A stretch of 64,000 nucleotides of DNA from NCBI RefSeq assembly GCF_904426505.1, contig NZ_CAJGBN010000071.1, positions 62,001-126,000 on the forward strand. The letters run 5' to 3'. The notes beneath the pieces were generated by a model. The model saw only the letters and a program-made list of their open reading frames with translations, searched no databases and was not told the DNA's origin. Both the position numbers and the translations under genes were made by a program. Shown piece after piece: positions 3,137 to 40,648 of this stretch; within the stretch, counting starts at the first letter, position 1, and each line of letters begins with the position of its first letter. Source of the stretch: Rubrivivax sp. A210. GTDB lineage: Bacteria > Pseudomonadota > Gammaproteobacteria > Burkholderiales > Burkholderiaceae_C.

Positions 3137-3170
3137 GGCTTGCTCCTGGGGAGGACGGGGGTGGGGTCGC

Positions 3171-4169
3171 TCAGGGGGCGGCCGTCTGCACGCCGTGCAG
3201 AAGGCCGGAGGACACGTGCATCGCGCCGGCGGCGTCCACCACCACGGCATCAATGTCGGTCAGCGTCTCCACCAGCGCCAGGCCGCGCTCGGCGCCCAGC
3301 ACGAAGACCGTCTTGGACAGCGCCTCGCTGGTAAGGCCGTCGGGGGCCAGGATGGTGACGCTGTGTACGCCCCGTGGCGAACGGCCGCTGGCGGGGTCGA
3401 TGAGGTGGTGGTGGCGCTCGCCGGCTTCCTCGAAGTAGCGCTCGTAGTCGCCCGAGGTGGAAATCGACACGTCTTCCAGCGGCAGCACGGCCACCGTCTC
3501 GCCGGCGCGGCGCGGGTCGCGGATAGCCACGCTCCAGGGGCGGCCGCGGCGGTCACCGATGACGCGGCTGTCGCCGCCGGCACTGACCATGGCGTGCTCG
3601 ATGCCGCGCTGGCGCAGCAGCCTCGTCGCGCGGTCGACCGCATGGCCCTTGGCGAAGCCGCCAAGGTCGATGCACATGCCGGGGCGGGCGAAGCGCAGCG
3701 TGTGCTCGCGCGTGTCCAGCTCCAGGTGCTGCCAGCCGACGCATTCGCGCGCAGCCTGCAGCGCGGGCTCAGTGGGGCGCACGCGGCGGCGGTAGTCGTA
3801 GAGGCGCCCCACCGCGGCATAGCTGATGTCGAAGGCGCCGTTCGACAGGCGGCTGAAGCCCAGCGCGCGCTCGACCAGACCGAACATCTCAGCCGACAGC
3901 GGCACCGGGCCCAGGGCCGCCTCACGGTTGATGCGCGACAGCTCCGAGGTGGTCTTGTGGGGGCTCATCGCGCGGTCGATGCGGTGCATCTCGTCCATCA
4001 CCGCGGCGATGGCGGCAGCCCCTTCCTGGGCGTCTTCGGCCCACAGCTCCACCGCGATGGCCGTGCCCATGATGGCCTCCTCGCGCTTGAGCCAGCCGGC
4101 GGCGGCGCGCGGCGCGCGGCGCACGAAATCGAAGCGGAACTGTCCGGGGGCGGTGGTGGCAAACAGCAT
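3171..4169 (-). CDS. apbE: FAD:protein FMN transferase (ApbE family)
   Basis: ApbE proteins cleave FAD and attach FMN covalently to a Thr/Ser of target flavoproteins, usually in the periplasm or periplasm-facing redox complexes. The family core is present: CIDLGGFAKGHAVD, SAGGDSRVIG, and a C-terminal TSEALSKTVFVLG segment that forms the Mg site. About 332 residues from the ATG at 4169; a GTG start at 4271 is possible, and neither has a convincing ribosome site. No signal peptide or lipobox is evident at either start. It precedes the HzsA-like gene by 34 bases. No obvious FMN-accepting target (RnfG/NqrC/NosR-like) is in the window. Confidence 0.85.
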   Translation of the reverse strand: MLFATTAPGQFRFDFVRRAPRAAAGWLKREEAIMGTAIAVELWAEDAQEGAAAIAAVMDEMHRIDRAMSPHKTTSELSRINREAALGPVPLSAEMFGLVERALGFSRLSNGAFDISYAAVGRLYDYRRRVRPTEPALQAARECVGWQHLELDTREHTLRFARPGMCIDLGGFAKGHAVDRATRLLRQRGIEHAMVSAGGDSRVIGDRRGRPWSVAIRDPRRAGETVAVLPLEDVSISTSGDYERYFEEAGERHHHLIDPASGRSPRGVHSVTILAPDGLTSEALSKTVFVLGAERGLALVETLTDIDAVVVDAAGAMHVSSGLLHGVQTAAP

Positions 4170-4371
4170 GGTGGTGCGCCGGTGGTGCGGCGTTCTGGGT
4201 AGCGGGTGGTGCGCAGCGCTTTGATCCAGCGCAAGCCTGTTATCGGATGCCGTGGAAGGTAACTGTTGCACGGCGACCGCGCAGTGACGGCTGGTGCCGA
4301 CCTGCGTGCAGTTGCGTCAGATGTAAGCCCTTGCGCGGCGCCATGCCCGACACACGCGCGTCACACGCCCG

Positions 4372-5211
4372 TCACATGCCTTTGAACAGGCCGGTGTAGC
4401 TGCGGCTGACCTCGAGCTTCTCGGCGTGACCCTTGACGGCGACGATCTGGCGCCCGCGGAAGTCGCGCGTCACGCCGGCAATCGCCTTCACCGCCACCAG
4501 GGTGCTGCGGTGGATCTGCCAGAACAGGCGCGGGTCGAGCTCGTCGACCAGCTCCTTGATGGGCTTGCGGATCAGCGCCTCGACCTGGGCCGTCTGCACC
4601 CGCGTGTACTTCTCGTCGCTGATGAAGAAGAGCACCTCGTCGACCGGAATCATCTGGATCGCCTGGCCCACGGTGGCCTGTATCCATTCCAGGTAGCGCG
4701 GCGCGCCGCCCGGGTTGATGCGCGCAGCCAGCTGGTGCAGCAGCTGCTGCAGCGGGGGGCCTGCCTCGCCATCGGCGGCCTCGGCACCGCCCTGGCGCGC
4801 CGCCAGGCGTTTGCGGATGCGCTCCACCGTGAGCTGCAGGCGTTCACGCTCTGCGGGCTTGAGCACATAGTCGGCCACGCCCTGCTCGAAGGCCTCGACC
4901 GCGTACTGGTCGTAGGCGGTGATGAAGACGATCTCGGGCAACCACTCTTCGTCGCCGCCCTCGCGCGGGGGCAGCTGGGCGATCTGGCGCGCCGCGTCGA
5001 CCCCGCTCAAGCCCGGCATGCGGATGTCGAGGAAGACGATGTCGGGCCGCTGCTCATCGGCCATCTGCACTGCCTCGAGGCCGTTGCGCGCCTCGGCAAC
5101 GATTTGCAGCTCGGGCCAGACCTCGGCCAGGCGGGCGCGCAGTTGTTCGCGCATCAGGCGCTCGTCGTCGGCCAGCAGGGCGCGCGGTGCGGCTTGGGTG
5201 GGGTCGTTCAT
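4372..5211 (-). CDS. LytTR-family response regulator
   Basis: A 279-residue regulator. The receiver domain occupies roughly residues 10-130, with acidic pocket ADDE and phospho-acceptor Asp62 in VFLDIRMPG. A linker is followed by a C-terminal LytTR DNA-binding domain (about 170-279; FISDEKYTRVQT, LFWQIHRSTLVAV). It is 34 bases downstream of its histidine kinase and surely its partner. AlgR/LytR-type regulators bind direct repeats; the target genes cannot be read from the sequence. Confidence 0.9.
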   Translation of the reverse strand: MNDPTQAAPRALLADDERLMREQLRARLAEVWPELQIVAEARNGLEAVQMADEQRPDIVFLDIRMPGLSGVDAARQIAQLPPREGGDEEWLPEIVFITAYDQYAVEAFEQGVADYVLKPAERERLQLTVERIRKRLAARQGGAEAADGEAGPPLQQLLHQLAARINPGGAPRYLEWIQATVGQAIQMIPVDEVLFFISDEKYTRVQTAQVEALIRKPIKELVDELDPRLFWQIHRSTLVAVKAIAGVTRDFRGRQIVAVKGHAEKLEVSRSYTGLFKGM

Positions 5212-5245
5212 GCGCCCATCCTAGCCGCGCCTGCCACAACCGCGA

Positions 5246-6682
5246 TCAGGCGAAGGCGCCTTCAATGCTCTTGTAGGGCACGGTGATGGTGACGACGGTG
5301 CCGCTGGGCTGGTTCTCGGCCACCGTGAGCGCGGCCTTGGGGCCGTAGAGCAGCTGCAGGCGCTCGCGGATATTGGCCAGGCCGACGCCGGTGCCGGCGG
5401 TGGCCGCCTTGCCGAAGCCGAGGCCCGTGTCGGCCACCGTCATCTGCAGCCGGCCGTGCACGATTTCGGCCGCCACGCGCAGGCTGCCGCCCTCGGGCTT
5501 GGGTTCGAGGCCGTGCTTGATGGCGTTCTCGACCAGGGTCTGGATCATCATGGGCGGGAACTCGGCCGAGAGCAGGCCGTCGGGCACGGCAACTTCGGTG
5601 ACGAGGCGCTCTTCCATGCGCACCTTGAGGATCTCCAGATAGGGCCGGATCACCGCGATCTCGCGCCCGAGGTCGCGCACACCGCCGCCGCTGCCGCCAG
5701 CGGCCTCGCGCATGGTGGGCATGCTGGCACGCAGCAGCGCGATCAGGTTCTTCTGCATCTCGCTGGCGCGCTTGGGGTCGGTCTCGATCAGGTGGTCGAT
5801 GCTGGCCAGGGTGTTGAACAGGAAGTGCGGCTCGACCTGGGCCTGCATCGCCGCCATGCGCGCTTCCACCACCTGGCGCCGCAGCGATTCGGCCTCGGCC
5901 GTCTCGGTGGCCTGGGCCGCCTTCACCTCGGCCTGCTTCTGGCCCTTGTAGGTGTACTTGATGATGGCCGAGGCCAGGATCCACAGCGTGGTGAACTGCA
6001 TCATGAAGTCGCCGATGCCGATGCGCGTGGTGCGCTTGGTCTTGCCGGGCCTGGCCTGGACGCGGCTCAGCTCCTCGATCGCCGCCTCGGCATCGCGGCG
6101 CGCCTCGGCGGCGTCGCGCGCTGCCTCCTCGGCGTCGCGCCGGGCCTCGCGTATCGATTCCTCGATCTGGCGCCGCGCCTCGGCCACGGCCTCGCGCACC
6201 GAGTCGGCGGCCACGCCCGGCGGCAGCGTGATGTGGACGCCGGCGGCCGAGGCGGCGCTGTCTGCGGCGCTGGCGGCACGCCGCGCCTGCTCGGCCGCGG
6301 CCTCGGCCGCCGAGGCCGCCTGCGCTGGCGTCGACTCCCGCCCGACGATGCGGATGCCGTCCTTGCCGATGTTGATCTCGACGCCGCCACCGCCGGCGCC
6401 CGATGGGGCTTCGATGCGTATCGGTGCTTTCGGCGGCTTGGGCGGCGGCGGCGGCAGACCGCTGCGCGCCGGCTGGTTCTCGATCTGCTCGGTGATGGTC
6501 CAGGTGAAGGGCGGCAGGTCGTGCAGGATGCCCATCACGATGAGCAGCGCCAGCGCCAGCACGATGAAGCGCTTCCAGCTGATGCCCACCAGCCAGTTGG
6601 CATAGGCGTGGAAGGCGCGCAGGGCGCCGCTGGCGTAGCGCTGCCAGCGCGAACCGGAGGTTGGAGGAGTGGCGGCTGTCAT
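5246..6682 (-). CDS. LytS-type sensor histidine kinase
   Basis: A 478-residue membrane kinase. One membrane segment lies near residues 38-55 (FIVLALALLIVMGIL). A long Ala/Arg/Glu-rich coiled coil (about 125-205) follows, then a second hydrophobic stretch around 225-242. The His_kinase domain (VEPHFLFNTLA, His acceptor) and HATPase domain (N-box LVENAIKHGLEP, G-box DTGLGFG, GVGLANIRERL) occupy the C-terminal half. The Ala-rich coiled coil is unusually long for this family and may place the sensing region between the two membrane segments. It is the first gene of the pair. Confidence 0.9.
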   Translation of the reverse strand: MTAATPPTSGSRWQRYASGALRAFHAYANWLVGISWKRFIVLALALLIVMGILHDLPPFTWTITEQIENQPARSGLPPPPPKPPKAPIRIEAPSGAGGGGVEINIGKDGIRIVGRESTPAQAASAAEAAAEQARRAASAADSAASAAGVHITLPPGVAADSVREAVAEARRQIEESIREARRDAEEAARDAAEARRDAEAAIEELSRVQARPGKTKRTTRIGIGDFMMQFTTLWILASAIIKYTYKGQKQAEVKAAQATETAEAESLRRQVVEARMAAMQAQVEPHFLFNTLASIDHLIETDPKRASEMQKNLIALLRASMPTMREAAGGSGGGVRDLGREIAVIRPYLEILKVRMEERLVTEVAVPDGLLSAEFPPMMIQTLVENAIKHGLEPKPEGGSLRVAAEIVHGRLQMTVADTGLGFGKAATAGTGVGLANIRERLQLLYGPKAALTVAENQPSGTVVTITVPYKSIEGAFA

Positions 6683-6802
6683 GGGCGGCCTGGCGGGGCG
6701 GAATGCATACGGTGGACTGTACGCAGCCGCGGCGGCGCCGCCAGCGCCGCGCGATGCGTTGCGCGCACCGCGCGACGGCCTGCCAAGACGCCGGACAGGC
6801 CG

Positions 6803-7699
6803 TCAGCCGAAGAGTTCGCCGCGCGCCGACTGCGTGATCGCGACGACGCAGGGATGGGTGATGCGGCGCTCGACCGAGATGGCGTAGAAGCGGTCGACCA
6901 GCTCGTCGCTGCGGCCCAGGACCTGCACGCCGTATTGCGCCACGGTCTCGGCCTCCACCACCGTGGGCGAGATGAAAACGCCACGGCCCTCGCGGCCGAA
7001 GGCCTTCATCAGCGCGCCGTCATCGAACTCGCCCACGATGCGCGGCTGCAGGCGGTGGCGCATCAGCCAGGCCTCGACCTGGGGCCGCATCGACGAGGTG
7101 GCGCCCGGCATCAGCATGGGTGCGCCGTCCAGGCAGGCGGGGAAGTCGCCGAGCAGCGAGCGGCACAGGGCGGGGGCGCCGAAGACCGTCATCGTCGAAC
7201 GCCCGAGCTCGTGGTTGAAGGCCTTGATGCTGAAGCGCGGCGTCAACGGCTCGTCGGCGATGACGAGGTCGACCCGGTGCAGCGCCAGCTGCGCCAGCAG
7301 GTTGTCGAAAGTGCCCTCGATGCAGATCAGCCGCACCGACTCGGCCACGCCCAGCGCAGGCTCCAGCAGGCGGTAGGCCACCGACTTGGGCACCGCGTCC
7401 TCAAGGCCGACGCGGAACTCCAGCGTCTGTTGTGCGCCGCTGCGCGCGGCGCTCATCGCCGCCTCGAGCTCGCCGCCGAGGGCGAAGATCTCGTCGGCAT
7501 AGCGCAGGGCAACGCGGCCGTCGGCGGTGAGCTCGAGGTTGCGACCGCTGCGCTTGAACAGGCGCCGGCCCAGGCGCTGTTCGAGCAGCTTGATCTGGCC
7601 CGAAAGCGTCTGCGGCGTGGTGTGCAACTGCTCACCGGCGCGCACCACCCCGCCAGCCCGAGCTGCCACCCAGAAATAGTAGAGGTGCTTGAAGTTCAC
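6803..7699 (-). CDS. nhaR: LysR-family regulator, NhaR-like
   Basis: 298 residues. The N-terminal winged helix-turn-helix begins MNFKHLYYFWVAARAGGV, the typical NhaR opening, and continues through TPQTLSGQIKLLEQRLG. The LysR substrate domain follows. In enterobacteria NhaR activates the sodium/proton antiporter gene nhaA. No antiporter is adjacent here, so the symbol reflects family resemblance only. It is divergent from the Rrf2-type gene, with 109 bases between start codons. Confidence 0.8.
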   Translation of the reverse strand: MNFKHLYYFWVAARAGGVVRAGEQLHTTPQTLSGQIKLLEQRLGRRLFKRSGRNLELTADGRVALRYADEIFALGGELEAAMSAARSGAQQTLEFRVGLEDAVPKSVAYRLLEPALGVAESVRLICIEGTFDNLLAQLALHRVDLVIADEPLTPRFSIKAFNHELGRSTMTVFGAPALCRSLLGDFPACLDGAPMLMPGATSSMRPQVEAWLMRHRLQPRIVGEFDDGALMKAFGREGRGVFISPTVVEAETVAQYGVQVLGRSDELVDRFYAISVERRITHPCVVAITQSARGELFG

Positions 7700-7808
7700 G
7701 TTGCGGTTTATGCGATATGACTTCGTTCAAATTTCGAATTTACGCGAATCGGCAAAGGCCCTAGATTTCTCGCTGTTTTTCGCTTCGAAGTATCCAGGGA
7801 GCCTCGCC
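7700..7808. promoter_or_regulatory. divergent AT-rich promoter region nhaR / rrf2
   Basis: 109 bases, notably AT-rich for this genome. It contains the short palindrome AAATTTCGAATTT (about 7732-7744) near the nhaR start, a plausible LysR-type or Rrf2-type operator. The Rrf2 gene has AGGGAG about eight bases before its ATG. Promoter boxes cannot be assigned confidently. Confidence 0.4.
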
Positions 7809-8309
7809 ATGCGCATGAGTACCAAGGGCCGGTATGCCGTCAACGCCCTCATCGATCTCGCCCTGCGCGAGCCAGCCGGACCGGTGGCGCTCGCGTCCAT
7901 CGCCCAGCGCCAGCAGATTTCGCTGTCCTATCTCGAACAGCTTTTCAGCGCGCTGCGCCGCGACGGCGTGGTCGAGAGCACGCGCGGGCCGGGCGGCGGC
8001 TACACCCTGGGTCGGCCCGCCGACCAGATCAACATCGGCCAGGTCGTGCGCGCCGTTGACGACCCCATGCAGGAAGCGCCTCAGGAGACCCCCGACCCCA
8101 GCGCCGCGCTCTGGCGGCGCATGCAGCTGGTGATGCTGGACCACATGTCCACCATCCTGCTGGCCGAACTGGTGCAGGAGCAGATAGCCCAGGGCGCCAC
8201 CCCGGCCACGCCACCGCCTGCACCCTCGGCCCGGCGCCCGGCAACCAAGCGCCTGCGCGTGATGGCACCAAACTCGGTCTTCGCCCTCGGGCGCGATTTC
8301 GCCGCCTGA
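7809..8309 (+). CDS. Rrf2-family transcriptional regulator, lacks IscR cysteines
   Basis: 166 residues from the ATG at 7809. The N-terminal helix-turn-helix is very like IscR (MSTKGRYAVNALIDLAL, ISLSYLEQLFSALRRDGVV, GPGGGYTLGRP). The three clustered cysteines that bind the 2Fe-2S cluster in IscR are absent: the segment after AVDDPMQ contains no cysteine at all. It is not beside isc genes. It may sense another signal or act as a cluster-independent repressor. Confidence 0.8.
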   Translation: MRMSTKGRYAVNALIDLALREPAGPVALASIAQRQQISLSYLEQLFSALRRDGVVESTRGPGGGYTLGRPADQINIGQVVRAVDDPMQEAPQETPDPSAALWRRMQLVMLDHMSTILLAELVQEQIAQGATPATPPPAPSARRPATKRLRVMAPNSVFALGRDFAA

Positions 8310-8362
8310 ACCCGCGCCGCATCCCCGGGCCTTGCGCCCAGGGCTCAAGAGGCAATGCCAAG

Positions 8363-8391
8363 GGCCCGCCGCATCGAAGCGGCGGGCCTTT
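8363..8391. terminator. strong hairpin terminator between rrf2 and dctM
   Basis: A perfect 10-bp stem, GGCCCGCCGC / GCGGCGGGCC, with an ATCGAA loop, followed on the plus strand by TTTCT. It lies between convergent genes and probably ends both transcripts, the plus-strand one best. Confidence 0.8.
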
Positions 8392-8394
8392 CTC

Positions 8395-10470
8395 CTACTT
8401 GTACAGCGTCTGCGGCAGCCACATGCCGATCTGCGGGAAGATGTACAGCAGCGCCAGCGCCAGCACCTGTATGCCCATGAAGGGCAGCATGCCGGCGAAG
8501 ATCTGGTTCAGCGTCACATGCCGCGGCGACACCCCCTTCAGATAGAAGGCCGCCATCGCCACCGGCGGGCTCAGGAAGGCGGTCTGCAGGTTCAGCGCCA
8601 CCAGCAGGCCGAAGAACAGCGGGTCGACATTGAACTTGGCCAGCAGCGGGATGAAGATGGGCATGAAGATCACGATGATCTCGGTCCATTCCAGCGGCCA
8701 GCCCAGGATGAAGATGATGAACTGCGACAGCAGCATGAACTGCAGCGTCGTCAGCCCCAGCGACAGCACCCAGCGCTCGATCAGATCCTGGCCGCCCAGC
8801 AGCGCGAAGGCGGCCGAGAAGATGGACGAACCCACGAACAGCCAGCACACCATGGCGCTGGTCTTGGCGGTGAGGAAGGACGACTCCTTGACGATGCCGC
8901 CCAGCTCGCGCAGCGTCTTGGCGGCCGCACCGCCACCCGCCGAGCGCGCCGCCACGTAGCGGTAGGCGCCAGCCAGCAGCACACCGCCGAAGGCCCCCAC
9001 CGCTGCCGCTTCGGTGGGCGTGGCCAGACCGAAGACGATGGACCCGAGCACGGCCAGGATCAGTATGGCCAGCGGGAAGAAGGACTCCAGCAGCATCTTG
9101 AAGATCTCGAGCCGTTGCCAGTTCATCGTCCAGCTCACCAGTGCCAGGGCGGTCATGCCCACGCCGAAGACCACCCAGTACCAGGTGGGTGCGGGCACGC
9201 GTTCGGCGGGCGGTGGGGGTGCGGGCGCGGCCGGTGCGGCAGCGGTGGGCGCTACCGCCGCGGCAGGCTCCGCAGCTGCGGGCGCCGCCGAAGCCGCACC
9301 ATCGGCCGCGGGCGGTTCGCTCAGGCCGCCGGACTCCCGCGGCGGTTCGCTCAGGCCGCCGGACTCCCGCGGCGGTTCGCTCAGGCCACCGGCTTCCTGT
9401 GGCGGCTCGCTCAGGCCGCCGGACTCGGCCGCGGCCGGCTCGTCGGCGCCCAAGGCACCGCCGGCCTGCACCAGGCCGGCAGTGTCCACCGCGGCCACGG
9501 GCGCCGTACTGCCCAGGTACATCAGGCCCAGCAGGGCCGCGATGGACAAGGCCGGCAGCAGCGCAATCATCAGCTGCCCGCCCACCTTGGCGCGCGGCAG
9601 CGACGCGTCGCGCAGCGCCACGCCCAGCCCCGCCAGCGCGTTGCGGTGACCGCCGCTTGCGCTCAGGCGCGCGGCCAGGGGCGGCAGCGCCACCAGGCGC
9701 TCCTGCGACGGCAGCGGCGGCGCCAGATGCGGCTTCCACTTGGCGAGGATGATGACGTAGCCCACGTACAGCGCCGCCAGCATGACGCCGGGGAAGAAGG
9801 CGCCGGCGTAGAGCTTGACCACCGAGACGCCGGCGGTGGCGCCATAGACGATGAGCAGCACCGAGGGCGGGATCAGGATGCCCAGGCAGCCGCCGGCGGT
9901 GATGGCACCGGCGGCCAGCTGCACGCTGTAGCCGGCGCGCAGCATGGCCGGCAGTGCCAGCAGGCCCATCAGCGTGACCACCGCGCCCACGATGCCGGTG
10001 GCGGTGGCGAAGATGGCGCAGGTGACGATGGTGGCCACCGCCAGCGCGCCGGGCACCTGGGCCAGCGCCAGATGCAGGCTCTTGAACAGCTTTTCGATCA
10101 GGTTGGCGCGCTCGACCAGGTAGCCCATGAAGACGAAGAGCGGGATGGCGATGAGCACGTCGTTGCTCATCACCGAGTAGGCGCGCTGCACCATCAGGTC
10201 GAGGATCTGGCGCGTGGCCAGCTCGGGGTTGACGCTGCGGTAGGCAATCCAGCCGAAGACCATGCCCATGCCCATCAGCGTGAACGCCGTGGGGAAGCCC
10301 AGCATGATGGCCACCACGATCAGCGCCAGCATCAACAGGCCCAGGGCGCCCAGGTCTTCGCGGTTCAGCTGGCCGTCGAAGAAACCGGCCCAGGGCGTGA
10401 AGATCAGCACCGTGGTCAGGATGATCGCCATCAGCGAAAAGCCGAACCACAACTCCTTGCGTATCTTCAT
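8395..10470 (-). CDS. dctM: TRAP transporter large permease (DctM-type) with long insertion
   Basis: Multi-spanning subunit that moves an organic anion with sodium. At 691 residues it is far longer than the usual ~430. Typical DctM segments occur at the N-terminus (FPTAFTLMGMGMVFGW, TGIVGAVVTLMGLLALPAM, GGCLGILIPPSVLLIVYG) and C-terminus (FGLATPTEAAAVGAFG, GWPLEWTEIIVIFMP). Between them lies a roughly 200-residue insertion with extra hydrophobic stretches and a Pro/Ala-rich, tandemly repeated loop at 9311-9430. The ATG at 10470 overlaps the end of dctQ by four bases (ATGA), indicating translational coupling. Confidence 0.88.
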   Translation of the reverse strand: MKIRKELWFGFSLMAIILTTVLIFTPWAGFFDGQLNREDLGALGLLMLALIVVAIMLGFPTAFTLMGMGMVFGWIAYRSVNPELATRQILDLMVQRAYSVMSNDVLIAIPLFVFMGYLVERANLIEKLFKSLHLALAQVPGALAVATIVTCAIFATATGIVGAVVTLMGLLALPAMLRAGYSVQLAAGAITAGGCLGILIPPSVLLIVYGATAGVSVVKLYAGAFFPGVMLAALYVGYVIILAKWKPHLAPPLPSQERLVALPPLAARLSASGGHRNALAGLGVALRDASLPRAKVGGQLMIALLPALSIAALLGLMYLGSTAPVAAVDTAGLVQAGGALGADEPAAAESGGLSEPPQEAGGLSEPPRESGGLSEPPRESGGLSEPPAADGAASAAPAAAEPAAAVAPTAAAPAAPAPPPPAERVPAPTWYWVVFGVGMTALALVSWTMNWQRLEIFKMLLESFFPLAILILAVLGSIVFGLATPTEAAAVGAFGGVLLAGAYRYVAARSAGGGAAAKTLRELGGIVKESSFLTAKTSAMVCWLFVGSSIFSAAFALLGGQDLIERWVLSLGLTTLQFMLLSQFIIFILGWPLEWTEIIVIFMPIFIPLLAKFNVDPLFFGLLVALNLQTAFLSPPVAMAAFYLKGVSPRHVTLNQIFAGMLPFMGIQVLALALLYIFPQIGMWLPQTLYK
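9311..9430 (-). repeat. in-frame 30-bp tandem repeat, four units
   Basis: Four consecutive 30-bp units encode SGGLSEPPRE-like decapeptides inside the dctM insertion. The first two are identical and the others diverge slightly (CCACCGGCTTCCTGT in the third). The frame is kept. This is a likely site of length variation between strains. Confidence 0.9.
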
Positions 10471-32690: not shown

Positions 32691-33434
32691 TTAGTGAGCG
32701 GCGCCGTTCAGCACCTGCTGCAGGCCCACCGGATCGGTGATGCGGATCTGGCGGTTGCGCACGAAGAGCAGGCCGTCGGCCTGGAACTTCGAGAAGGTGC
32801 GGCTCACGGTTTCCAGCGTCAGGCCGAGAAAGCTGCCGATCTCTTCACGCGTCATGCGCAGCAGCACCGAGCTGGCCGAGAAGCCGCGCGCCTGCAGGCG
32901 GTTGGTCAGATTGAGCAGAAAGGCGGCCAGGCGCTCCTCGGCATACATGCTGCCCAGCAGCAACATGACGCCCTGGTTGCGCACGATCTCGCGGCTCATG
33001 ATGCGGTGCAGCTGCAGCTGCAGCGAGGCGACCTCGGCGGACAGCAACTCCAGCGCCTCGAAGGGGATGACGCAGACCTGGGAATCTTCCAGCGCCGTGG
33101 CGTCGACCTCGTGGCGGCGCGAGCCGATGCCGTCCAGGCCCAGCAGTTCACCGCCGAGCTGGAAGCCGGTGACCTGGCTGCGGCCGTCCTGCGAGTTGAC
33201 GGCGGTCTTGAAGAAGCCGGTCCACACCGCGTAGAGCGATTCGAAGCGGTCACCCGCCTGGTAGAGCGGGGCGCCGCGCGCCACCTTGCGGCGGGTGGCG
33301 ACGAGGCGGGAATCGATGTATTCCATCTCCAGCCGCGTCAGCCCCACCGGCAGGCAGATCTCGCGCAGATTGCAGCTCGAGCACTCGACCTCGCAGGCGT
33401 TGGTGTGGATCGGGCGAAAGACGGATCTGTCCAT
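32691..33434 (-). CDS. fnr: oxygen-sensing Fnr-type transcription regulator
   Basis: 247 residues. Four N-terminal cysteines (14, 18, 21, 27) and one central cysteine (DSQVCVIPF) reproduce the Fnr 4Fe-4S ligand spacing C-x2-C-x5-C. The cNMP-fold sensor and dimer helix are followed by a helix-turn-helix (LRMTREEIGSFLGLTLETVSRTFSKFQ) whose E..SR recognition residues read TTGA half-sites. Start at 33434 is chosen to match Fnr N-termini. The nearby TTGAY-N4-RTCAA-like boxes make the surrounding operons its likely targets. Confidence 0.95.
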   Translation of the reverse strand: MDRSVFRPIHTNACEVECSSCNLREICLPVGLTRLEMEYIDSRLVATRRKVARGAPLYQAGDRFESLYAVWTGFFKTAVNSQDGRSQVTGFQLGGELLGLDGIGSRRHEVDATALEDSQVCVIPFEALELLSAEVASLQLQLHRIMSREIVRNQGVMLLLGSMYAEERLAAFLLNLTNRLQARGFSASSVLLRMTREEIGSFLGLTLETVSRTFSKFQADGLLFVRNRQIRITDPVGLQQVLNGAAH

Positions 33435-33592: not shown

Positions 33593-34999
33593 CTAGCGGG
33601 CTGTGCCGCCCAGCCATTCAGCCACCGCCCGCGCGCCCTCCTGGCCGTTGCGGATGCAGTCTCCCACCGCAACCCCGCCCTTCCAGTTGGCGACGAAAAA
33701 CAGGCCGGGCAGCGCCTGCGCCGCCGCGGTGGCGCGCGCAACCCGGCCCAGATGGCCCAGCGTGTACTGCGGGATGGCGCGCGGCCAACGCGTCACCACC
33801 TGCCAGCGCGGCGCGGCGCCGGCGCCCAGCAGGGCCTGGTGCTCGACCCAGGCGATGTCCGCAATGGCGGCCTCGTCCAGCGCCGGCAACTCGGGCTGGC
33901 GCCGTCCGCCGATGAAACTGGTGAGCAGCACCTCGCCGGCCGCCGCGCGGCCCTCGAACATGCTGCTGGAAAACAGCACGCCCAGCACGCGGCGGCCCTC
34001 GCGGCGCGGCACCAGGCAGCCGAAGCCATCGAGCGGATGCGCCACATCCGCACGCGCATAGACGCTGGCGACCGTGGCCACCGGCGCATAGGCGATCTCC
34101 TGCAAGGCAGCCGCGGCGTCGGCCGCGTGCTCGCGCAGCAGCGTGGCCGTGACATCGGCGGGCGTGGCCAGCACCAGGGCGCGGGTGCGCCAGCGCAGCG
34201 CCTCGCCGGCGCGCTGGGCGTCGACCGTGAAGACGCCGTCGCCGCCCCGCGCGATGCGCGTGACCCGGGTCTCCAGCGCCAGCGGGCCCACGGTGGCGGC
34301 CAGGGCGTCGGTCAGCACCTGCATGCCGCCGGCGAAGGAAAAGCTCTTGGCGGTGTTCTTGGCCGTCTCCTTGGCCCGCCGCCGCTCGGCGCCGCCGAGG
34401 ATCTGGCCGCGGATCAGGCTGCCCCAGCGCTGCTCCAGCGCCTGCAGCTTGGGGAAGGCCGCCTGCACCGAGATCTGCTCTGGGTCACCGGCATAGATGC
34501 CGGCAACGAAGGGGTCGATGGCGTAGTCCAGGAACTCCGGCCCGAGGCGGCGGCGCACGAAGGCGGCGATGGTTTCCTCGCGTGCCGGATCGCCGCGCGC
34601 AACGAAGGGCTCGCGCAGCAGCCCCAGCTTGGCGCCGGCCGAGAACAGCGGCGTGCGCAAAAAGGCGCCCGGCGACATCGGCAGCGCATGCAGGGCGCCG
34701 CCGCGCACCACATAGCGCTTGGCCGCCGCCTCGCTGGCAAAGCGCATCTGCCCCTGCAGGCCCAGGGCCTCGACCATCTCGCCGATCAGCGGCGTGGTGT
34801 CGAGCGCGCTGTTGGGCCCGCGCTCGTAGAGCGCGCCCCCCCTTGCAACGCTGGTGATGACGCCGCCGGCGCGCGGCTCGGCCTCGAGCACCTGCACGCG
34901 CAGGCCGGCGCGGCGCAGGCCCTGGGCGGTAGACAGGCCGGAAATGCCGGCGCCGACGACGAGGGCGTCGAGCAGATCGGGGGTGGCGGCTGCGGTCAT
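33593..34999 (-). CDS. hemG: protoporphyrinogen oxidase (HemY type)
   Basis: 468 residues. FAD-dependent oxidation of protoporphyrinogen IX, penultimate haem step. N-terminal dinucleotide motif DALVVGAGISGLSTAQGLRR; substrate region and C-terminal FAD motif GLFFVANWKGGVAVGDCIRNG are family-typical. This is the oxygen-dependent class by homology. It lies between the TPR gene and fnr on the same strand; supply of haem for the 8-haem and 11-haem cytochromes may explain its presence. Confidence 0.92.
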   Translation of the reverse strand: MTAAATPDLLDALVVGAGISGLSTAQGLRRAGLRVQVLEAEPRAGGVITSVARGGALYERGPNSALDTTPLIGEMVEALGLQGQMRFASEAAAKRYVVRGGALHALPMSPGAFLRTPLFSAGAKLGLLREPFVARGDPAREETIAAFVRRRLGPEFLDYAIDPFVAGIYAGDPEQISVQAAFPKLQALEQRWGSLIRGQILGGAERRRAKETAKNTAKSFSFAGGMQVLTDALAATVGPLALETRVTRIARGGDGVFTVDAQRAGEALRWRTRALVLATPADVTATLLREHAADAAAALQEIAYAPVATVASVYARADVAHPLDGFGCLVPRREGRRVLGVLFSSSMFEGRAAAGEVLLTSFIGGRRQPELPALDEAAIADIAWVEHQALLGAGAAPRWQVVTRWPRAIPQYTLGHLGRVARATAAAQALPGLFFVANWKGGVAVGDCIRNGQEGARAVAEWLGGTAR

Positions 35000-35044: not shown

Positions 35045-35674
35045 TCAGCGGGGCGGCGGCAGGGCCAGCCGGGCGCGTTGCTCGGCGCGCACGATGGCGG
35101 CTGAGAGTTCGGTGTGTCGAGTATCGCCGGGCGCAAGCCGGGCCCGCAGGCGCCGCCAGTGCGTCGCCGCACCGGCGAAGTCGCCCGCCTCCCAGGCGGC
35201 GCTGCCGGCCAGGTCCAGCGCCTGCGGATGGTCGGCGTCCAGACCCAGAGCGCGGGCGATCAGCGCCGTCGGCTCGCCGGCCAGGCGGCCACCCTGGGCC
35301 AGGCCCAGGGCCTCGGCCAGTTCGACCCAGACGCCGGCATCGCGTGCCACCTTGGGCGCCATCTCCAGCGCCTGGCGGTAGCCGGCCACGGCGAGATCGA
35401 AGCGCTCGGCGCGCAGGTCCATGCGCGCCTTCAGCACGCGGGCGCGGGCGTCACGGGGATAGCGCGCGATCTGCTGCGCCAGCGCTTCGTAGCGGGTATC
35501 GGCGGCTGAATCGGCCGCCAGCGGCGGCAGCTCGGCCTCGGCGGCCGGGGCCAGGGCGCGCCAGCCCAACCAGGCGGCCAGCGCCAGCGCACCGGCCAGC
35601 GCGGGCAGCCCCCAGCGCCGCGGCAGGCGCCAGCGCCGACCCTCAGCCTGCATCGCCATGCGGGCCGCTGCCAT
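35045..35674 (-). CDS. TPR protein, NrfG/CcmI-like cytochrome c assembly factor
   Basis: 209 residues from the ATG at 35674 (a GTG one codon earlier is possible). An N-terminal anchor (GLPALAGALALAAWLGW) is followed by about four TPR-like repeats (RYEALAQQIARYPRDARARVLKARMDLRAERFDLA...). This matches NrfG and the TPR half of CcmI/CycH, which present apocytochrome to the haem lyase. It begins nine bases after the octaheme reductase stop, a position matching nrfG in nrf operons. Confidence 0.8.
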   Translation of the reverse strand: MAAARMAMQAEGRRWRLPRRWGLPALAGALALAAWLGWRALAPAAEAELPPLAADSAADTRYEALAQQIARYPRDARARVLKARMDLRAERFDLAVAGYRQALEMAPKVARDAGVWVELAEALGLAQGGRLAGEPTALIARALGLDADHPQALDLAGSAAWEAGDFAGAATHWRRLRARLAPGDTRHTELSAAIVRAEQRARLALPPPR

Positions 35675-35683
35675 CACGGCGCC

Positions 35684-37375
35684 TCAGCGTGCCGCCGGGG
35701 CCGATGCCGGCGTGGCCGCGGCCACCGGCCTGCCGAGCCCGCGCCTGGCCGCCATCGCCTCGTCGAGCAGCTTGATGCCGCCCTGCGAGATGACCATGCC
35801 CTTGTTGATGGACTCCATCGCGAGGTCGGGGTTGTGGAAGTGGCTGCCGTTGGAAGCGGTCCAGTACTCCCAGTGCACATGGGCCTCGTAGTGGCGGCCG
35901 CGCGCATCGTCGAGAACGGCCTTGTCGACACCCAGGTTCTGCGCCTCCTCGAACTTGTCGACGAAGCGGGTGAGCCAGAACTCGGCCTTGCGCAGCTTGC
36001 CCTGGTACTTGTTCTTCATCGAATCGATGGTGTAGATGGCCTGCTTCTCGGTCCACACCTTGTGGCAGCCCAGGCAGGCTTCCTTGACATAGTTCTTGGG
36101 GCTGGTCTGCCAGTGCGAGGTGTAGGTCTTGCCGGTCTTGGCATCCTTCATCTTGGGCATGTGGCAGCCGCTGCACTCGACGCCTTCCTTGTCGTGGCGG
36201 CTGTTGTAGTAGGTCTCGGTGTCGGGGTGCTGGGCCTTCCAGAGGCCGGCGCCGGTGATGCCGTGCTTGAAGTCGCGGAAGCGCAGGTCGGTGTAGTGCT
36301 TGGCGATGCCGTTCACGTCCTTGAAGGGGAAGTGATTGGTGCGCGGGTCGTCCATGCCGATGGGCTTGCCGGTGACCGGGTCGGTGCCGGGGTTGCAGTT
36401 GTATTCCACATGGCACTGGCCGCATTGCAGCTTGGTGTCGTAGCGGCTGAGCATGGCGATCTTGCGCGTGTAGCCGCGCTCGCCAAAGTCGCGCACGTCG
36501 ATCTTGGCGCCCTTGGGGTCGGCGTGCCAGAGCGTGTCCTTCTCGGGCCGCGTGAGCGCCTGGATGAGGCCGTCGCGGATGATGCGCGGCTTCGCGTTGT
36601 GCGGGTCGTGGCAGAAGATGCAGTTCATCGAGTGGTTCACGTCCTTGATGAACTCGTTCACCTTGGACAGCCGGCTCCACTTGGCCTTGGGCTCGGCATC
36701 GCCCAGGTAGGCCCAGTCGAGGATGTGGTCGGCCGTCTTGCACGACATGCACACCGGGTTGGCCGCCGCCGCCGTGCCCGGCTTGAAGACCTTGTGCGGC
36801 TCGCCCGGGTACTGGTCGACCAGCACGTCCCAGATCTTGAAGTCGCCACCGGCGCGTGCCAGGCCTTCGCGGCCCTGCTTGTTGACGAAGCGGCCGCCGA
36901 AGGCGCGGTCGACCACCAACTGGTCGTAGAGCATGAAGGCGTGCGATCGGGGCTCGTTATGCTCTCGCGTGAAGCCGTGCGGCATCATCAGCTTGTCGAA
37001 GGCCGGGTCGGGCGAGGGCCCGGTGGCCAGCACCTTCTCCTTCTGCGCCGTCTTCTCGAAGTTCATCGCGTAAAGCGTGCGGTACTGGTTCTGGTGGCAG
37101 CTGCCGCAGGTGCCCGAGTCGGTCTTGGTGACCGGCCGGCCCTTGCCCTTGGCGCCGTGCGCCGCCAGGCCCTCGTGGCAGCTGTGGCAGGCCACAGTCT
37201 TGTGCTGGCCGGCTGCGTGGAACTCCTTGACCTCCTTGTGGCAGTCGTAGCAGTCGGCCACGTCATAGCCCGGCGTCTTGGGCTTGCCCTGGGCCTGGGC
37301 ATCGCCCCAGGCCAGCGTGAGCAGCAGCGCGCAGAGCGCGGCAAGGGGAAACTGCAGGAACCTGGCCAAGGACAT
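35684..37375 (-). CDS. octaheme ammonia-forming cytochrome c nitrite reductase
   Basis: 563 residues with signal peptide (residues 1-29, LTLAWGDAQAQ). Eight haem sites: CYDCH 42, CHSCH 63, CGSCH 90, CMSCK 209, CIFCH 252, CGQCH 318, CSGCH 401, CLGCH 434. The single CXXCK supplies the lysine-ligated catalytic haem of the NrfA superfamily. CGQCHVEY and AQHPDTE carry the catalytic Tyr325 and His383. Tyr325-Asn-Cys327 matches the Tyr-x-Cys thioether pair of the octaheme enzyme of Thioalkalivibrio. Six-electron reduction of nitrite to ammonium in the periplasm is expected. RBS GGAG lies before ATG 37375. Confidence 0.93.
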   Translation of the reverse strand: MSLARFLQFPLAALCALLLTLAWGDAQAQGKPKTPGYDVADCYDCHKEVKEFHAAGQHKTVACHSCHEGLAAHGAKGKGRPVTKTDSGTCGSCHQNQYRTLYAMNFEKTAQKEKVLATGPSPDPAFDKLMMPHGFTREHNEPRSHAFMLYDQLVVDRAFGGRFVNKQGREGLARAGGDFKIWDVLVDQYPGEPHKVFKPGTAAAANPVCMSCKTADHILDWAYLGDAEPKAKWSRLSKVNEFIKDVNHSMNCIFCHDPHNAKPRIIRDGLIQALTRPEKDTLWHADPKGAKIDVRDFGERGYTRKIAMLSRYDTKLQCGQCHVEYNCNPGTDPVTGKPIGMDDPRTNHFPFKDVNGIAKHYTDLRFRDFKHGITGAGLWKAQHPDTETYYNSRHDKEGVECSGCHMPKMKDAKTGKTYTSHWQTSPKNYVKEACLGCHKVWTEKQAIYTIDSMKNKYQGKLRKAEFWLTRFVDKFEEAQNLGVDKAVLDDARGRHYEAHVHWEYWTASNGSHFHNPDLAMESINKGMVISQGGIKLLDEAMAARRGLGRPVAAATPASAPAAR

Positions 37376-37460: not shown

Positions 37461-37474
37461 TTGTTCCAGATCAA
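37461..37474 (-). promoter_or_regulatory. Fnr-type box upstream of the octaheme reductase
   Basis: TTGATCTGGAACAA on the minus strand (TTGTTCCAGATCAA on plus): one half-site perfect, the other with one mismatch. It lies about 86-99 bases before the reductase ATG and overlaps the stop codon of the upstream HdrD-like gene. Confidence 0.6.
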
Positions 37475-39483
37475 GCCGGCTGCGTCAGCGCCTCGGCCAC
37501 CAGCTCGGCGATGTCGCGCGTGGGCGGCGCCACGTCGGGCCGCGCGGCGGCCAGGCCGTCGCCCATCATCACGGCGCAATAGGGGCAGGCCGTGGCCACC
37601 ACCTCGGGGGCCTGGGCCAGGGCCTGCTCGGCGCGGGCGACGTTGATGCGCGTGCCTGTCGTCTCTTCCATCCACATGCGGCCGCCGCCGGCACCGCAGC
37701 ACATGGACTTTTCGCGCGCCAACACAAACTCCAGCGGCGGCGTACCGCCCGCCAGGCGCGCCAGCACTTCACGCGGCGCGTCGAACTCGCCGTTGTGGCG
37801 TCCCAGGTAGCAGGGGTCGTGGAAGACCACGCGCTGGGGGCTGGGCTGCAGCTTCACTCGGCCCTGGCGCATCAGTTCGGCAATCAGCGCCGTGTGGTGT
37901 ACCACCTCGTAGTGGCCGCCAAACTCGGGGTATTCGTTGCGCAGGCTGTTCAGCGCATGGGGGTCGCAGGTGACGATGCGCTTCACGCCCATCTCGGTGA
38001 GCGTCGCCACCAGGCCGGTGGCGAGCTGCTGGAACAGCATCTCGTTGCCGACACGGCGCGCGCATTCGCCGGTGGAGCCTTCGCGCGCACCCAGGATGCC
38101 GAAGCGCACGCCGGCATGCTGGAGCACGCTGACAAAGGCGCGCGCAATCTTTTGGCCGCGCGGGTCGTAGGACATCGCCGAGCCCACGTAGAACAGCAGC
38201 TCCAGCCCCTCCATGTCGGCCGCGCTGCGCACCACGGGCACACCCAGCTCGCGCGCCCAGTCGCCGCGCTGATCGGACGCCAGGCCCCAGGCATTGCCCT
38301 GCGATTCCCAGGCCTCGAAGACCTTCTTCAGCTCGTGCGGAAACTCGCCGACGATCATCACCTGGTGCTGGCGCATGCGGAAGAACTTGTCCAGGTGCTC
38401 CAGCTCGATGGGGCAGGCGGCCTCGCAATAACCGCAGCTGGTGCAGGCCCACAACGTCTCTTCGCCGATCACCGGGCCCACCAGGGCCGGCAGCTTGGAT
38501 TCGGGGTCGCCGGCGACGATCAGTTCGCCCTGCTCCAGCAGGTGGTGCTTGACGCTGTCGTGTACCTTCTTCAGCGACAGCGGCTTGCCGGTCAGATGGG
38601 TGGGGCAGGCGTCCTTGCAGCGGCCGCATTCGGTGCAGGTGAAGGCGTCCAGGCCTTCCTTCCACGTCAGGTCGCGCACGGTGCGCACGCCCGCCTTCAT
38701 GTCGGCTTCGTCGGTGGCCTCCATCAGCTTGGCTATGTCGACCGAGGGCACGCGGTGGGCCGGCCGGCCGCGGCGGAAGAAGAGCACCGGCAGCGCGGTG
38801 ACGATGTGGAAGTGCTCGCCTGCCGGCAGCAGCACCAGGAAGGCGAACACCACCGCCATCTGCAACCAGTACGACAGGTGGTAGCCCACGGCCTGGGCCG
38901 GCGCACTCAAGCCCGCCGCAGCCTGGGCCAGCGCGCCGCCGATGAAGGCAAAGCCCTGCTCGTGCGCCACCGAGGCGTGCAGCGGCGAGAGGCGGGCGAA
39001 GCGGAAGGCATCGAAGGCGAAGTCGGTGACCATGATGGTGAGGATCAGGCCCAGCACCAGGATGGCCTCGCGGTTGGGCTCCAGCCGCGGCGGGCGCAGC
39101 ACGAAGCGGCGCCAGAAGGCGTAGAGCACGGCGGCGGTGACGGCCAGCTCGACACCGTCCTTGAAGGCCGCGAAGGGCCCGCCAAAGGCATCGGGAAACG
39201 ACGCCGGCTCGAAATAGCCGATGGCGATGAGCTGCAGCTTGCGCAGCAGCAGCGAGCAGAAGCCGAGGAAGATCACCGCGTGCATCAGCCCCGGCCGCCA
39301 TTCGCGCCTCAGCATGCGCTGCTGCAGCAGGCCGTTGACGAGCACGCTGAGTGCGCGCTCGCCGGCGTCGGCCCAGCGCACATCGGGGGCCAGGGCGATG
39401 ACGATGCGCAGCTTGCGCCAGGCCAGCCAGCCAAAGCCGGCAAAGCCCAGCAGCATCAGCAGCGTGATTCCGACGGGGCTCAT
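37471..39483 (-). CDS. membrane HdrD-like Fe-S oxidoreductase
   Basis: 670 residues from the ATG at 39483. An N-terminal NarI-like membrane domain (about 1-235, roughly six segments with His residues able to bind b haem) is fused to two 4Fe-4S motifs (CTECGRCKDACP, CTSCGYCEAACP) and a C-terminal cysteine-rich CCG-type domain (DPCYLGRHNGEFDAP, SMCCGAGGGRMW). The design matches quinone-linked HdrD/GlpC-like proteins. Together with the downstream octaheme reductase (95-base gap) it could pass electrons from quinol, but the partner is inferred. Confidence 0.82.
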   Translation of the reverse strand: MSPVGITLLMLLGFAGFGWLAWRKLRIVIALAPDVRWADAGERALSVLVNGLLQQRMLRREWRPGLMHAVIFLGFCSLLLRKLQLIAIGYFEPASFPDAFGGPFAAFKDGVELAVTAAVLYAFWRRFVLRPPRLEPNREAILVLGLILTIMVTDFAFDAFRFARLSPLHASVAHEQGFAFIGGALAQAAAGLSAPAQAVGYHLSYWLQMAVVFAFLVLLPAGEHFHIVTALPVLFFRRGRPAHRVPSVDIAKLMEATDEADMKAGVRTVRDLTWKEGLDAFTCTECGRCKDACPTHLTGKPLSLKKVHDSVKHHLLEQGELIVAGDPESKLPALVGPVIGEETLWACTSCGYCEAACPIELEHLDKFFRMRQHQVMIVGEFPHELKKVFEAWESQGNAWGLASDQRGDWARELGVPVVRSAADMEGLELLFYVGSAMSYDPRGQKIARAFVSVLQHAGVRFGILGAREGSTGECARRVGNEMLFQQLATGLVATLTEMGVKRIVTCDPHALNSLRNEYPEFGGHYEVVHHTALIAELMRQGRVKLQPSPQRVVFHDPCYLGRHNGEFDAPREVLARLAGGTPPLEFVLAREKSMCCGAGGGRMWMEETTGTRINVARAEQALAQAPEVVATACPYCAVMMGDGLAAARPDVAPPTRDIAELVAEALTQPA

Positions 39484-39593: not shown

Positions 39594-39721
39594 GCAAGCC
39601 CCACAGGCCCCGCCCACCCGCCGGGAGCGGGGGCCTCACTTCAGCCGGCGCTGGTTAGACTCCGCGCCAGACGCACCACGCAAGCCCTTTGGGGCGGCGC
39701 CCGGGTGCAGGAGGTGGATGG

Positions 39722-40648
39722 ATGCAGATCGAGGAACGCGCTGCCATTGCGGGTGACCGCCGGCTTTCGGCCTGGCGGGCCTGGGTCATTGCCGCGCGCC
39801 CGCATACCTTGTCGATCAGCATCAATCCGGTGCTGGTGGGCTGTTCGCTGGCCTGGGTCGAGACCGGCCGCATCGACTGGGCGGTGATGCTGCTGGCCAT
39901 GCTGGGCGCGCTGCTGCTGCAGACCGGCACCAACCTCGACAACGACGTGAGCGATTTCGAGCGCGGTACCGACCGCGCCGGCCGCCTGGGCCTGCCGCGC
40001 GCCACCCAGTTGGGCCTGCTCAGCACGGCCCAGGTGCGCACCGCTTCGCGCGCCTGCTTCGTCCTGGCAACGCTGGCCGGCCTGGCCCTGGCCTGGCACG
40101 GCGGCTGGGCCATCCTCTTGCTGGGCGTGCTCTCGGCGCTGGCGGCCATGGCCTATTCCGGCGGGCCGCGGCCCATTTCCTACACGCCCTTCGGCGACGC
40201 CGTGGTGCTGCTCTTCTTCGGCTTCGTCGCCGTCTGCGGCAGCTACTACCTGCAGACCCTGACGCTGAGCCCGGCGGTGTGGGCGGCGGCGGCCATCGTC
40301 GGCCTGCCGGCGTCGGCGGTGCTGGTGGTCAACAACTACCGCGACCTCGACCCCGACCGTCAGGTCGGCAAGATCACGCTCGCGGTGTGCATGGGGCGGG
40401 CCTTCAGCCGCTGGGAGTACGCGCTGCTGATGCTGCTGCCCTATGCGCTGCTGGGCGTGCTGGCCGAGCAGGCGCGCTTCGGCTGGGCGCTCTTGATCCC
40501 GCTCATCACGCTGCCCATGGCCCTGGGCCTGGTGCGCCAGTTCTGGCGCGCCACGCCGGGCCCGGCCTTCAATCCGCTGCTGGCGCGCACGGCCACCTTC
40601 CAGGTCATGCTGTCGCTGGTGCTTTGCGTCGCCATCCTCCTGTCCTGA
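39722..40648 (+). CDS. menA: 1,4-dihydroxy-2-naphthoate prenyltransferase (MenA-like)
   Basis: 308 residues with eight to nine membrane helices. UbiA-superfamily aspartate motifs: NLDNDVSDFERGTDR and NNYRDLDPDR. This MenA form attaches the polyprenyl tail to make demethylmenaquinone. ATG at 39722 follows AGGAGG. No other men genes are in the window. Divergent from the HdrD-like gene; a lower-potential menaquinone would suit hydrogen oxidation with nitrite. Confidence 0.88.
   Translation: MQIEERAAIAGDRRLSAWRAWVIAARPHTLSISINPVLVGCSLAWVETGRIDWAVMLLAMLGALLLQTGTNLDNDVSDFERGTDRAGRLGLPRATQLGLLSTAQVRTASRACFVLATLAGLALAWHGGWAILLLGVLSALAAMAYSGGPRPISYTPFGDAVVLLFFGFVAVCGSYYLQTLTLSPAVWAAAAIVGLPASAVLVVNNYRDLDPDRQVGKITLAVCMGRAFSRWEYALLMLLPYALLGVLAEQARFGWALLIPLITLPMALGLVRQFWRATPGPAFNPLLARTATFQVMLSLVLCVAILLS

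Follow-up and report, generated by a model that had tools for sequence, protein, structure and literature searches.

Octaheme nitrite reductases (ONRs) are defined in PMC5433712 by seven CXXCH haem motifs and one CXXCK motif, active-site Tyr, Arg and Cys residues and an identity above 40%, together with the six-electron reduction of nitrite, a hexameric assembly and a covalent Tyr-Cys bond, the last shown for the Thioalkalivibrio enzyme TvNiR. The onr gene is reported in PMC10716430 as occurring mainly in Gammaproteobacteria and Desulfuromonadia; since that source follows GTDB taxonomy, its Gammaproteobacteria may include genomes such as those discussed here, and an earlier detection is therefore possible. 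Our search of the open-licence literature found nothing on ONR in Burkholderiales; one paper that brings together octahaem cytochromes and Ramlibacter concerns MtrCAB and uses ONR as the abbreviation of a funder.

Attachment of the haem at CXXCK has been described for the pentahaem nitrite reductase NrfA. According to a 2025 review (PMC12285233), the CXXCK haem requires NrfEFG in E. coli, S. oneidensis is without these proteins and seems to mature NrfA via CcmF and CcmI, the C-terminus of NrfA is bound by the TPRs of both NrfG and CcmI, and the protein which recognises CXXCK and attaches its haem is described there as unclear.

Positions 35045-37375 of the window (the whole 64,000-nucleotide stretch of Rubrivivax sp. 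A210 DNA that was analysed) contain two minus-strand genes spaced by 6 bases, an ONR gene and then a gene for a TPR protein. These and the features around them are the following:

32691..33434, minus strand: FNR-type regulator, third gene downstream of ONR, with a cluster of four N-terminal cysteines
33593..34999, minus strand: protoporphyrinogen oxidase (TIGR00562, 291.1 bits, cut-off 97.85)
35045..35677, minus strand: TPR protein, CcmI/NrfG-like (Pfam, PDB and structure matches, model, conservation behind ONR)
35684..37375, minus strand: octaheme nitrite reductase, 563 aa
37461..37474, minus strand: FNR/CRP-type box TTGAT-CTGG-AACAA, 9/10 consensus bases
37471..39483, minus strand: heterodisulfide-reductase-like membrane protein containing 4Fe-4S and CCG domains, the upstream neighbour

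The octaheme nitrite reductase

The ONR gene starts with an ATG at 37375, preceded by the stretch GAGGAGAGG, and its product is likely exported, judging by eye from the hydrophobic N-terminus. A motif scan of the protein returned seven CXXCH motifs and one CXXCK motif, starting at residues 42, 63, 90, 209 (CMSCK), 252, 318, 401 and 434, and the protein also contains QHPDTE at 382 (Gln382-His383), EYNC at 324 (Tyr325-Asn-Cys327) and Arg157. The original prediction had listed eight haem motifs including one CXXCK, a QHPxxE histidine and Tyr325-Asn-Cys327, and was right in both motifs and numbering, though it named no strand. When the protein was used as a phmmer query against PDB, the eight-haem nitrite reductases of Thioalkalivibrio ranked first (E 4.8e-149), with the octaheme enzyme of Trichlorobacter ammonificans (8rv0) at 1.3e-147 and NrfA only from 8e-27; Pfam Cytochrom_C552 also matches it, with 184.6 bits. 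Matches as strong as the first PDB hit and the Foldseek hit given below rule out a chance resemblance. Aligned to TvNiR, it is identical at 229 of 503 positions (45.5%), and Arg157, Lys213, Tyr325, Cys327, Gln382 and His383 of the window protein fall on TvNiR Arg131, Lys188, Tyr303, Cys305, Gln360 and His361, respectively. Because the window protein agrees with the PMC5433712 definition in its haem motifs, its active-site Tyr, Arg and Cys and its identity above 40%, we call it an ONR.

The six catalytic residues are invariant in all 80 rows of an alignment that combines the window and TvNiR with 78 of the 80 relative loci; L069 and L080, for which no ORF was picked, are absent from these counts and from the ONR tree. 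Nineteen histidines of the window ONR are kept in at least 76 of the 80 rows as well as in TvNiR. By the pattern CXXC[HK], all eight haems occur in the same order in 64 of the 78 loci and fewer are found in the other 14, some of which are explained by CX3CH or CX4CH spacing or by a contig end. Variant spacing was seen at the first motif in L018 (CX3CH) and at the last motif in L040, L057, L063, L071 and L076 (CX4CH), all five outside the Burkholderiales group defined below; the ONR at L029:6001-7635 has seven haem motifs only by the CXXC[HK] pattern, with the first and last both present.

An AlphaFold model of the ONR was made from 28 sequences (mean pLDDT 81.5, pTM 0.81); the ONR alignment A2 left out L058 and 52 other loci. 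Searched with Foldseek, the model found solved ONR structures as its best match (E 1.8e-48), with TM scores of 0.83-0.84 by query and 0.89-0.94 by target, and it reached 0.55-0.58 by query against NrfA structures. Matches to the sulfite reductase MccA were insignificant (E 0.5-1.3), and neither HAO nor OTR was present among the 50 structural matches listed. Among these listed matches, none to HAO, OTR or MccA stands above those to ONR or NrfA, and the predicted structure speaks against membership of these three families. Nor is it an NrfA, having eight haems and not five and being separated from the NrfA rows of the tree by a branch at 100. It shares with NrfA the catalytic domain and the CXXCK motif, and differs in its three extra N-terminal haems and in its Y-x-C motif, which is absent from the two NrfA rows looked at. 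Similar to TvNiR and the T. ammonificans enzyme 8rv0, it has the haem order HHHKHHHH, the catalytic Arg, Tyr, Cys, Gln, His and Lys, and the same fold; it nevertheless differs from TvNiR at more than half of the aligned positions and lies on the opposite side of a branch at 100 in the tree, and the FNR-type box and downstream TPR gene are features of the window's own group as opposed to these two enzymes. Sequence, model and tree all support the prediction of an octaheme nitrite reductase whose active site is of the TvNiR type. The protein adds a new enzyme to a family already known; it is a real ONR, is probably functional, and, from the residues present, probably carries the Tyr325-Cys327 cross-link.

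Relatives and distribution

A scan of GTDB species genomes gave 318 relatives, of which only the best 80 were kept, so that counts by group are lower bounds. The ONR tree (85 rows, from a short search, with 21 of its 82 inner branches drawn open) was built from the window, the relative loci, TvNiR and, as its only non-ONR rows, two NrfA. In it, 44 ONR rows including TvNiR split from the rest at a support of 100, and the other side of that branch comprises the window and 38 loci together with the two NrfA rows. We refer to these 38 loci as the Burkholderiales group, most of them being titled Burkholderiales or Betaproteobacteria, with other titles in a few cases (L006, L020, L034, L041); if the root is placed on the NrfA branch, which is very long, they are a grade and not a clade. 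The window lies inside this group, in supported sets of 15 rows (99) and 21 rows (98), and the phylogeny against ONR and NrfA suggested with the original prediction thus places it among Burkholderiales ONRs, apart from TvNiR and NrfA. The titles of L030 (Bordetella parapertussis), L035 (Nitrospira japonica) and L041 (Chitinophaga pinensis) look like loose metagenome-bin labels; in the tree, the ONRs of L030 and L041 group with Burkholderiales ONRs.

ONR was found in 6 of the 60 genomes of the genus. Across 299 genomes of the family, ONR-like scores were obtained in two, the window's own genome and G102, while G171 has an NrfA score. The G102 ONR (L089) groups with TvNiR and apart from the window ONR; occurrence is patchy, and two kinds of ONR occur in the family. 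In G102, a CcmF gene is located just beside this TvNiR-group ONR. The claim that such enzymes are rarely described in these bacteria stands only as regards their patchiness within genus and family: at least 38 of the best 80 of 318 loci fall in one Burkholderiales-type group, and ONR in Burkholderiales is under-described rather than rare.

The downstream TPR gene and haem attachment

The TPR protein has a probable N-terminal transmembrane helix (modelled helix 25-46) followed by a TPR domain, in a model with a mean pLDDT of 87.1. Pfam TPR_CcmH_CycH matches it with 34.6 bits (2.1e-8), below the cut-off of 42, and the NCBIfam NrfG model NF007692 with 31.2 bits (1.6e-7) against a cut-off of 306; with this score so far below the cut-off, we call the protein NrfG-like only. 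A profile of 23 TPR relatives searched against PDB had NrfG (2e2e) as its best natural protein (E 8.9e-13), and NrfG was also the best natural structure by E-value for the TPR model, engineered TPRs scoring alike.

A TPR gene is found directly downstream of ONR in 30 of the 36 testable loci of the Burkholderiales group (two of the 38, L003 and L060, end too soon), where it overlaps the ONR end or begins at most 131 bases after it, these gaps being approximate because gene starts in the relative loci were picked by script. The six loci without it (L029, L031, L033, L034, L037, L039) are one clade, and five of them have ccmI 232-279 bases upstream of ONR, the sixth, L034, having only about 0.6 kb of upstream sequence. 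Both an upstream ccmI and a downstream TPR gene are present in L008, L014, L023, L025 and L041, and in 10 loci ccmI is followed by ONR after 100-279 bases. In loci from outside the group, a single weak match to the TPR profile was seen (L065, 67 bits), with flanks of about 1.5 kb in L089, L163 and L164. In a TPR tree of 43 rows, which left out this weak match, 31 ONR-linked TPRs split from 12 CcmIs at 100/100, and the TPR protein is outside the CcmI clade of ccm operons. In L012, L025 and L030, the ONR-linked TPR has retained a long N-terminus of CcmI-like appearance. The simplest history would be one in which ccmI was duplicated in an ONR locus lying behind a ccm operon, and the copy then specialised.

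The TPR protein is a probable maturation partner of the CcmI/NrfG type and would act as an apocytochrome chaperone. The original prediction had given it a haem-lyase role; the part in maturation is supported, whereas the lyase itself would be CcmF or NrfE and this protein resembles NrfG and CcmI. It belongs to the same TPR family as the CcmI of the general Ccm system, which is the arrangement reported for S. oneidensis NrfA, but falls, with the other ONR-linked TPRs, in a clade of its own next to the housekeeping CcmI. As for E. coli NrfEFG, the ONR-linked TPR subunit resembles NrfG (the 2e2e match above), but no NrfE- or NrfF-like gene was found among the window neighbours scanned. This "NrfG without NrfEF" looks like a modest new variant of known helper arrangements.

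CcmF matches (E 1e-50) were counted in 40 ONR-locus genomes, L040 and L060 not being among them: 29 have one, eight have two, one has three and two have none. For the 37 of these genomes that belong to the group, the corresponding numbers are 27, eight, one and one, and the matches of the single three-CcmF genome are partly pieces. Copies may have been missed, because most of these genomes are metagenome bins and a short CcmF end such as that of L005 does not reach the threshold. One CcmF match was found for R. lithotrophicus (strain record). Nine named loci (L005, L008, L025, L029, L031, L033, L037, L039, L041) have CcmF at no more than 6 kb from ONR, with a CcmF end directly before ONR in L005, and three members of the genus (G009, G037, G042) have it on the ONR contig at a distance of 9-13 kb. 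The window's own genome has two CcmF genes. The one on C56 is accompanied by a CcmI and by genes resembling CcmE, G and H (several names assigned by eye); the one on C12 has companions resembling CcmC, G and H, the last two named by eye, and is beside other cytochrome genes. The TPR profile had no match on the C12 stretch around the ccm set. This TPR-less set, at L129 (G000:C12) 1184-9200, is accompanied by several cytochromes c and repeat proteins and is perhaps part of an electron-transfer cluster with its own maturation genes.

We tentatively suggest that the group's duplicated CcmI, inherited with ONR, alone re-targets a single general CcmFH lyase to CXXCK, so that the lysine motif would be recognised by the TPR subunit instead of by an NrfE-type lyase; we hold this to be possible, somewhat short of probable. 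A rather unlikely alternative is that the C12 set (CcmC, F, G and H-like, no TPR gene) is the ONR lyase, equivalent to NrfEF, with the ONR-linked TPR protein as its G subunit. This would fit the lack of a TPR match in the C12 stretch examined, whereas C56 has CcmI. It would also fit the CcmF counts in the genus, where 3 of the 6 genomes with ONR and 8 of the 54 without it have at least two matches, some of these being pieces (Fisher p 0.07). However, the C12 set adjoins other cytochrome genes, and one CcmF match is what was found in the other 3 of the 6 ONR genomes of the genus and in 29 of the 40 named-locus ONR genomes, although genomes are often incomplete. A second CcmF was dropped as an ONR marker, having no strict association with ONR in the genus. 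Some members may have a dedicated lyase, but the partner that accompanies ONR more constantly is the TPR protein.

Control, neighbouring genes and nitrogen physiology

The box TTGATCTGGAACAA at 37474-37461 matches TTGAT-N4-ATCAA at 9/10 positions, about 90 bases before the ONR start, and overlaps the stop of the upstream gene. In the roughly 320 bases upstream of ONR, a box of at least 8/10 is present in 35 of 37 group sequences (2.4 in shuffles) and one of at least 9/10 in 24 of 37 (0.1 in shuffles), counts which include the window and from which L012 and L019 were left out as too short upstream. Control segments elsewhere in the same loci reached 8/10 in 9.4% and 9/10 in 1.2% of cases. The box was rejected as a trait of all ONRs, there being no clear enrichment outside the group (13 of 40, with 8.7 expected). 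The FNR-type regulator at 32691-33434 is a candidate for acting on the ONR box. Neither it nor the Crp/Fnr gene of R. lithotrophicus was retained as a conserved neighbour, searches yielding scattered weak matches only; the latter, at L009:8317-9024 (Ramlibacter lithotrophicus), is a Crp/Fnr-type gene whose protein has no cysteine and which faces the end of the ONR-TPR pair. We would like to note that such conservation, whether of the TPR gene or of the box, is association, not mechanism.

The protoporphyrinogen oxidase gene follows the TPR gene after 45 bases in the window, is also found behind ONR-TPR in L008 and L012, and in L025 comes after about 0.5 kb, a hint of coupled haem supply. On the upstream side, the heterodisulfide-reductase-like gene is probably outside the ONR unit. 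It recurs near ONR in L011, L024 (at the locus edge), L026 and L027, all titled Rubrivivax, with position and orientation that differ among these loci, and its product is unlikely to be a direct ONR donor, because its Fe-S domains are probably cytoplasmic; it may feed electrons into the quinone pool. A menaquinone-type menA gene is also near ONR, at 39689-40648 on the plus strand and at L024:2773-3594 (45% identity), and menaquinone would suit a low-potential donor. The original prediction had set the enzyme in a hydrogen-oxidising context. The window does contain hydrogenase clusters, with NiFe large and small subunits and, by eye, HoxF, but a HoxF query had no match in the 80 relative loci with their flanks of up to 6 kb, and a link between hydrogen and ONR, for which proximity to these clusters was the sole ground, is regarded as unsupported.

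Elsewhere in the genome there is a full-length NarG (2172 bits), around which NarK-, NarH-, NarJ- and NarI-like genes were recognised by eye. The ONR is the genome's only match to PF02335, the NrfA/ONR family. The best NirK match (37.7 bits) is below its cut-off of 296.3, NirS matches are short pieces only, the best of which (41 bits) is formally above the Pfam cut-off, and none of the 12 NapA matches is above cut-off. As a possible electron donor, a divergent NapC/NrfH-like cytochrome was found away from the ONR locus at 37.8 bits (42.9 as a whole protein), and one further NapC/NrfH-like match, at 21 bits, is below cut-off. Given NarG, no second NrfA/ONR, no NirK above cut-off and only short NirS pieces, nitrate ammonification is likely, and the simplest route encoded in this genome would likely run from nitrate through nitrite to ammonium.

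The same chemistry at low flux could instead serve to detoxify nitrite, NO, hydroxylamine or peroxide without conserving energy. ONRs also reduce hydroxylamine, sulfite and peroxide (PMC5433712), and no quinol dehydrogenase gene is present among the window neighbours scanned. NO-sensing regulators of the FNR family use boxes similar to the one found here. The complete NarG, with no second NrfA/ONR and no NirK above cut-off, argues for ammonification, and we consider a purely protective role unlikely. It is very unlikely that the TPR protein is an unrelated scaffold that owes its position to operon hitch-hiking: TPR domains are promiscuous and 6 of the 36 testable loci have no downstream TPR gene, but against this stand the separate clade, the 30/36 linkage, NrfG as the best natural structural match, and the ccmI directly upstream in five of these six loci. 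That the physiological substrate is sulfite or a different sulfur compound is most improbable, for although TvNiR structures with sulfite exist (3f29) and PMC5433712 reports sulfite reduction by the family, the MccA matches are insignificant, the nitrite-type catalytic set is invariant and the genome has NarG.

On the observed gene content, motifs, residue invariance, fold, tree placement and conservation of the TPR gene and box, we regard as probable an FNR-controlled ONR-TPR unit in which TPR-assisted maturation yields an enzyme converting nitrite to ammonium. At low oxygen, a regulator of the FNR family would turn on the unit. ONR would be exported to the periplasm, with seven haems going to CXXCH motifs and the catalytic haem to CXXCK. 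Anchored in the membrane, the TPR protein would be a copy of CcmI that serves ONR alone; it would hold the apoprotein and hand it to a CcmF/CcmH lyase, which would attach the lysine-ligated haem. NarG would make nitrite from nitrate, and ONR would reduce it to ammonium with six electrons at haem 4, by way of Arg157, Tyr325 (probably cross-linked to Cys327), Gln382 and His383.

If the tentative reading of the TPR protein is true, it would stand between E. coli NrfEFG and the CcmI of Shewanella as a third strategy of maturation. Where a genome combines a single CcmF match with an ONR-linked TPR gene, the question of CXXCK recognition can be tested by one gene deletion. Burkholderiales are better known for denitrification; the ONR loci described here point to likely nitrate ammonifiers among them, which bears on nitrogen retention.
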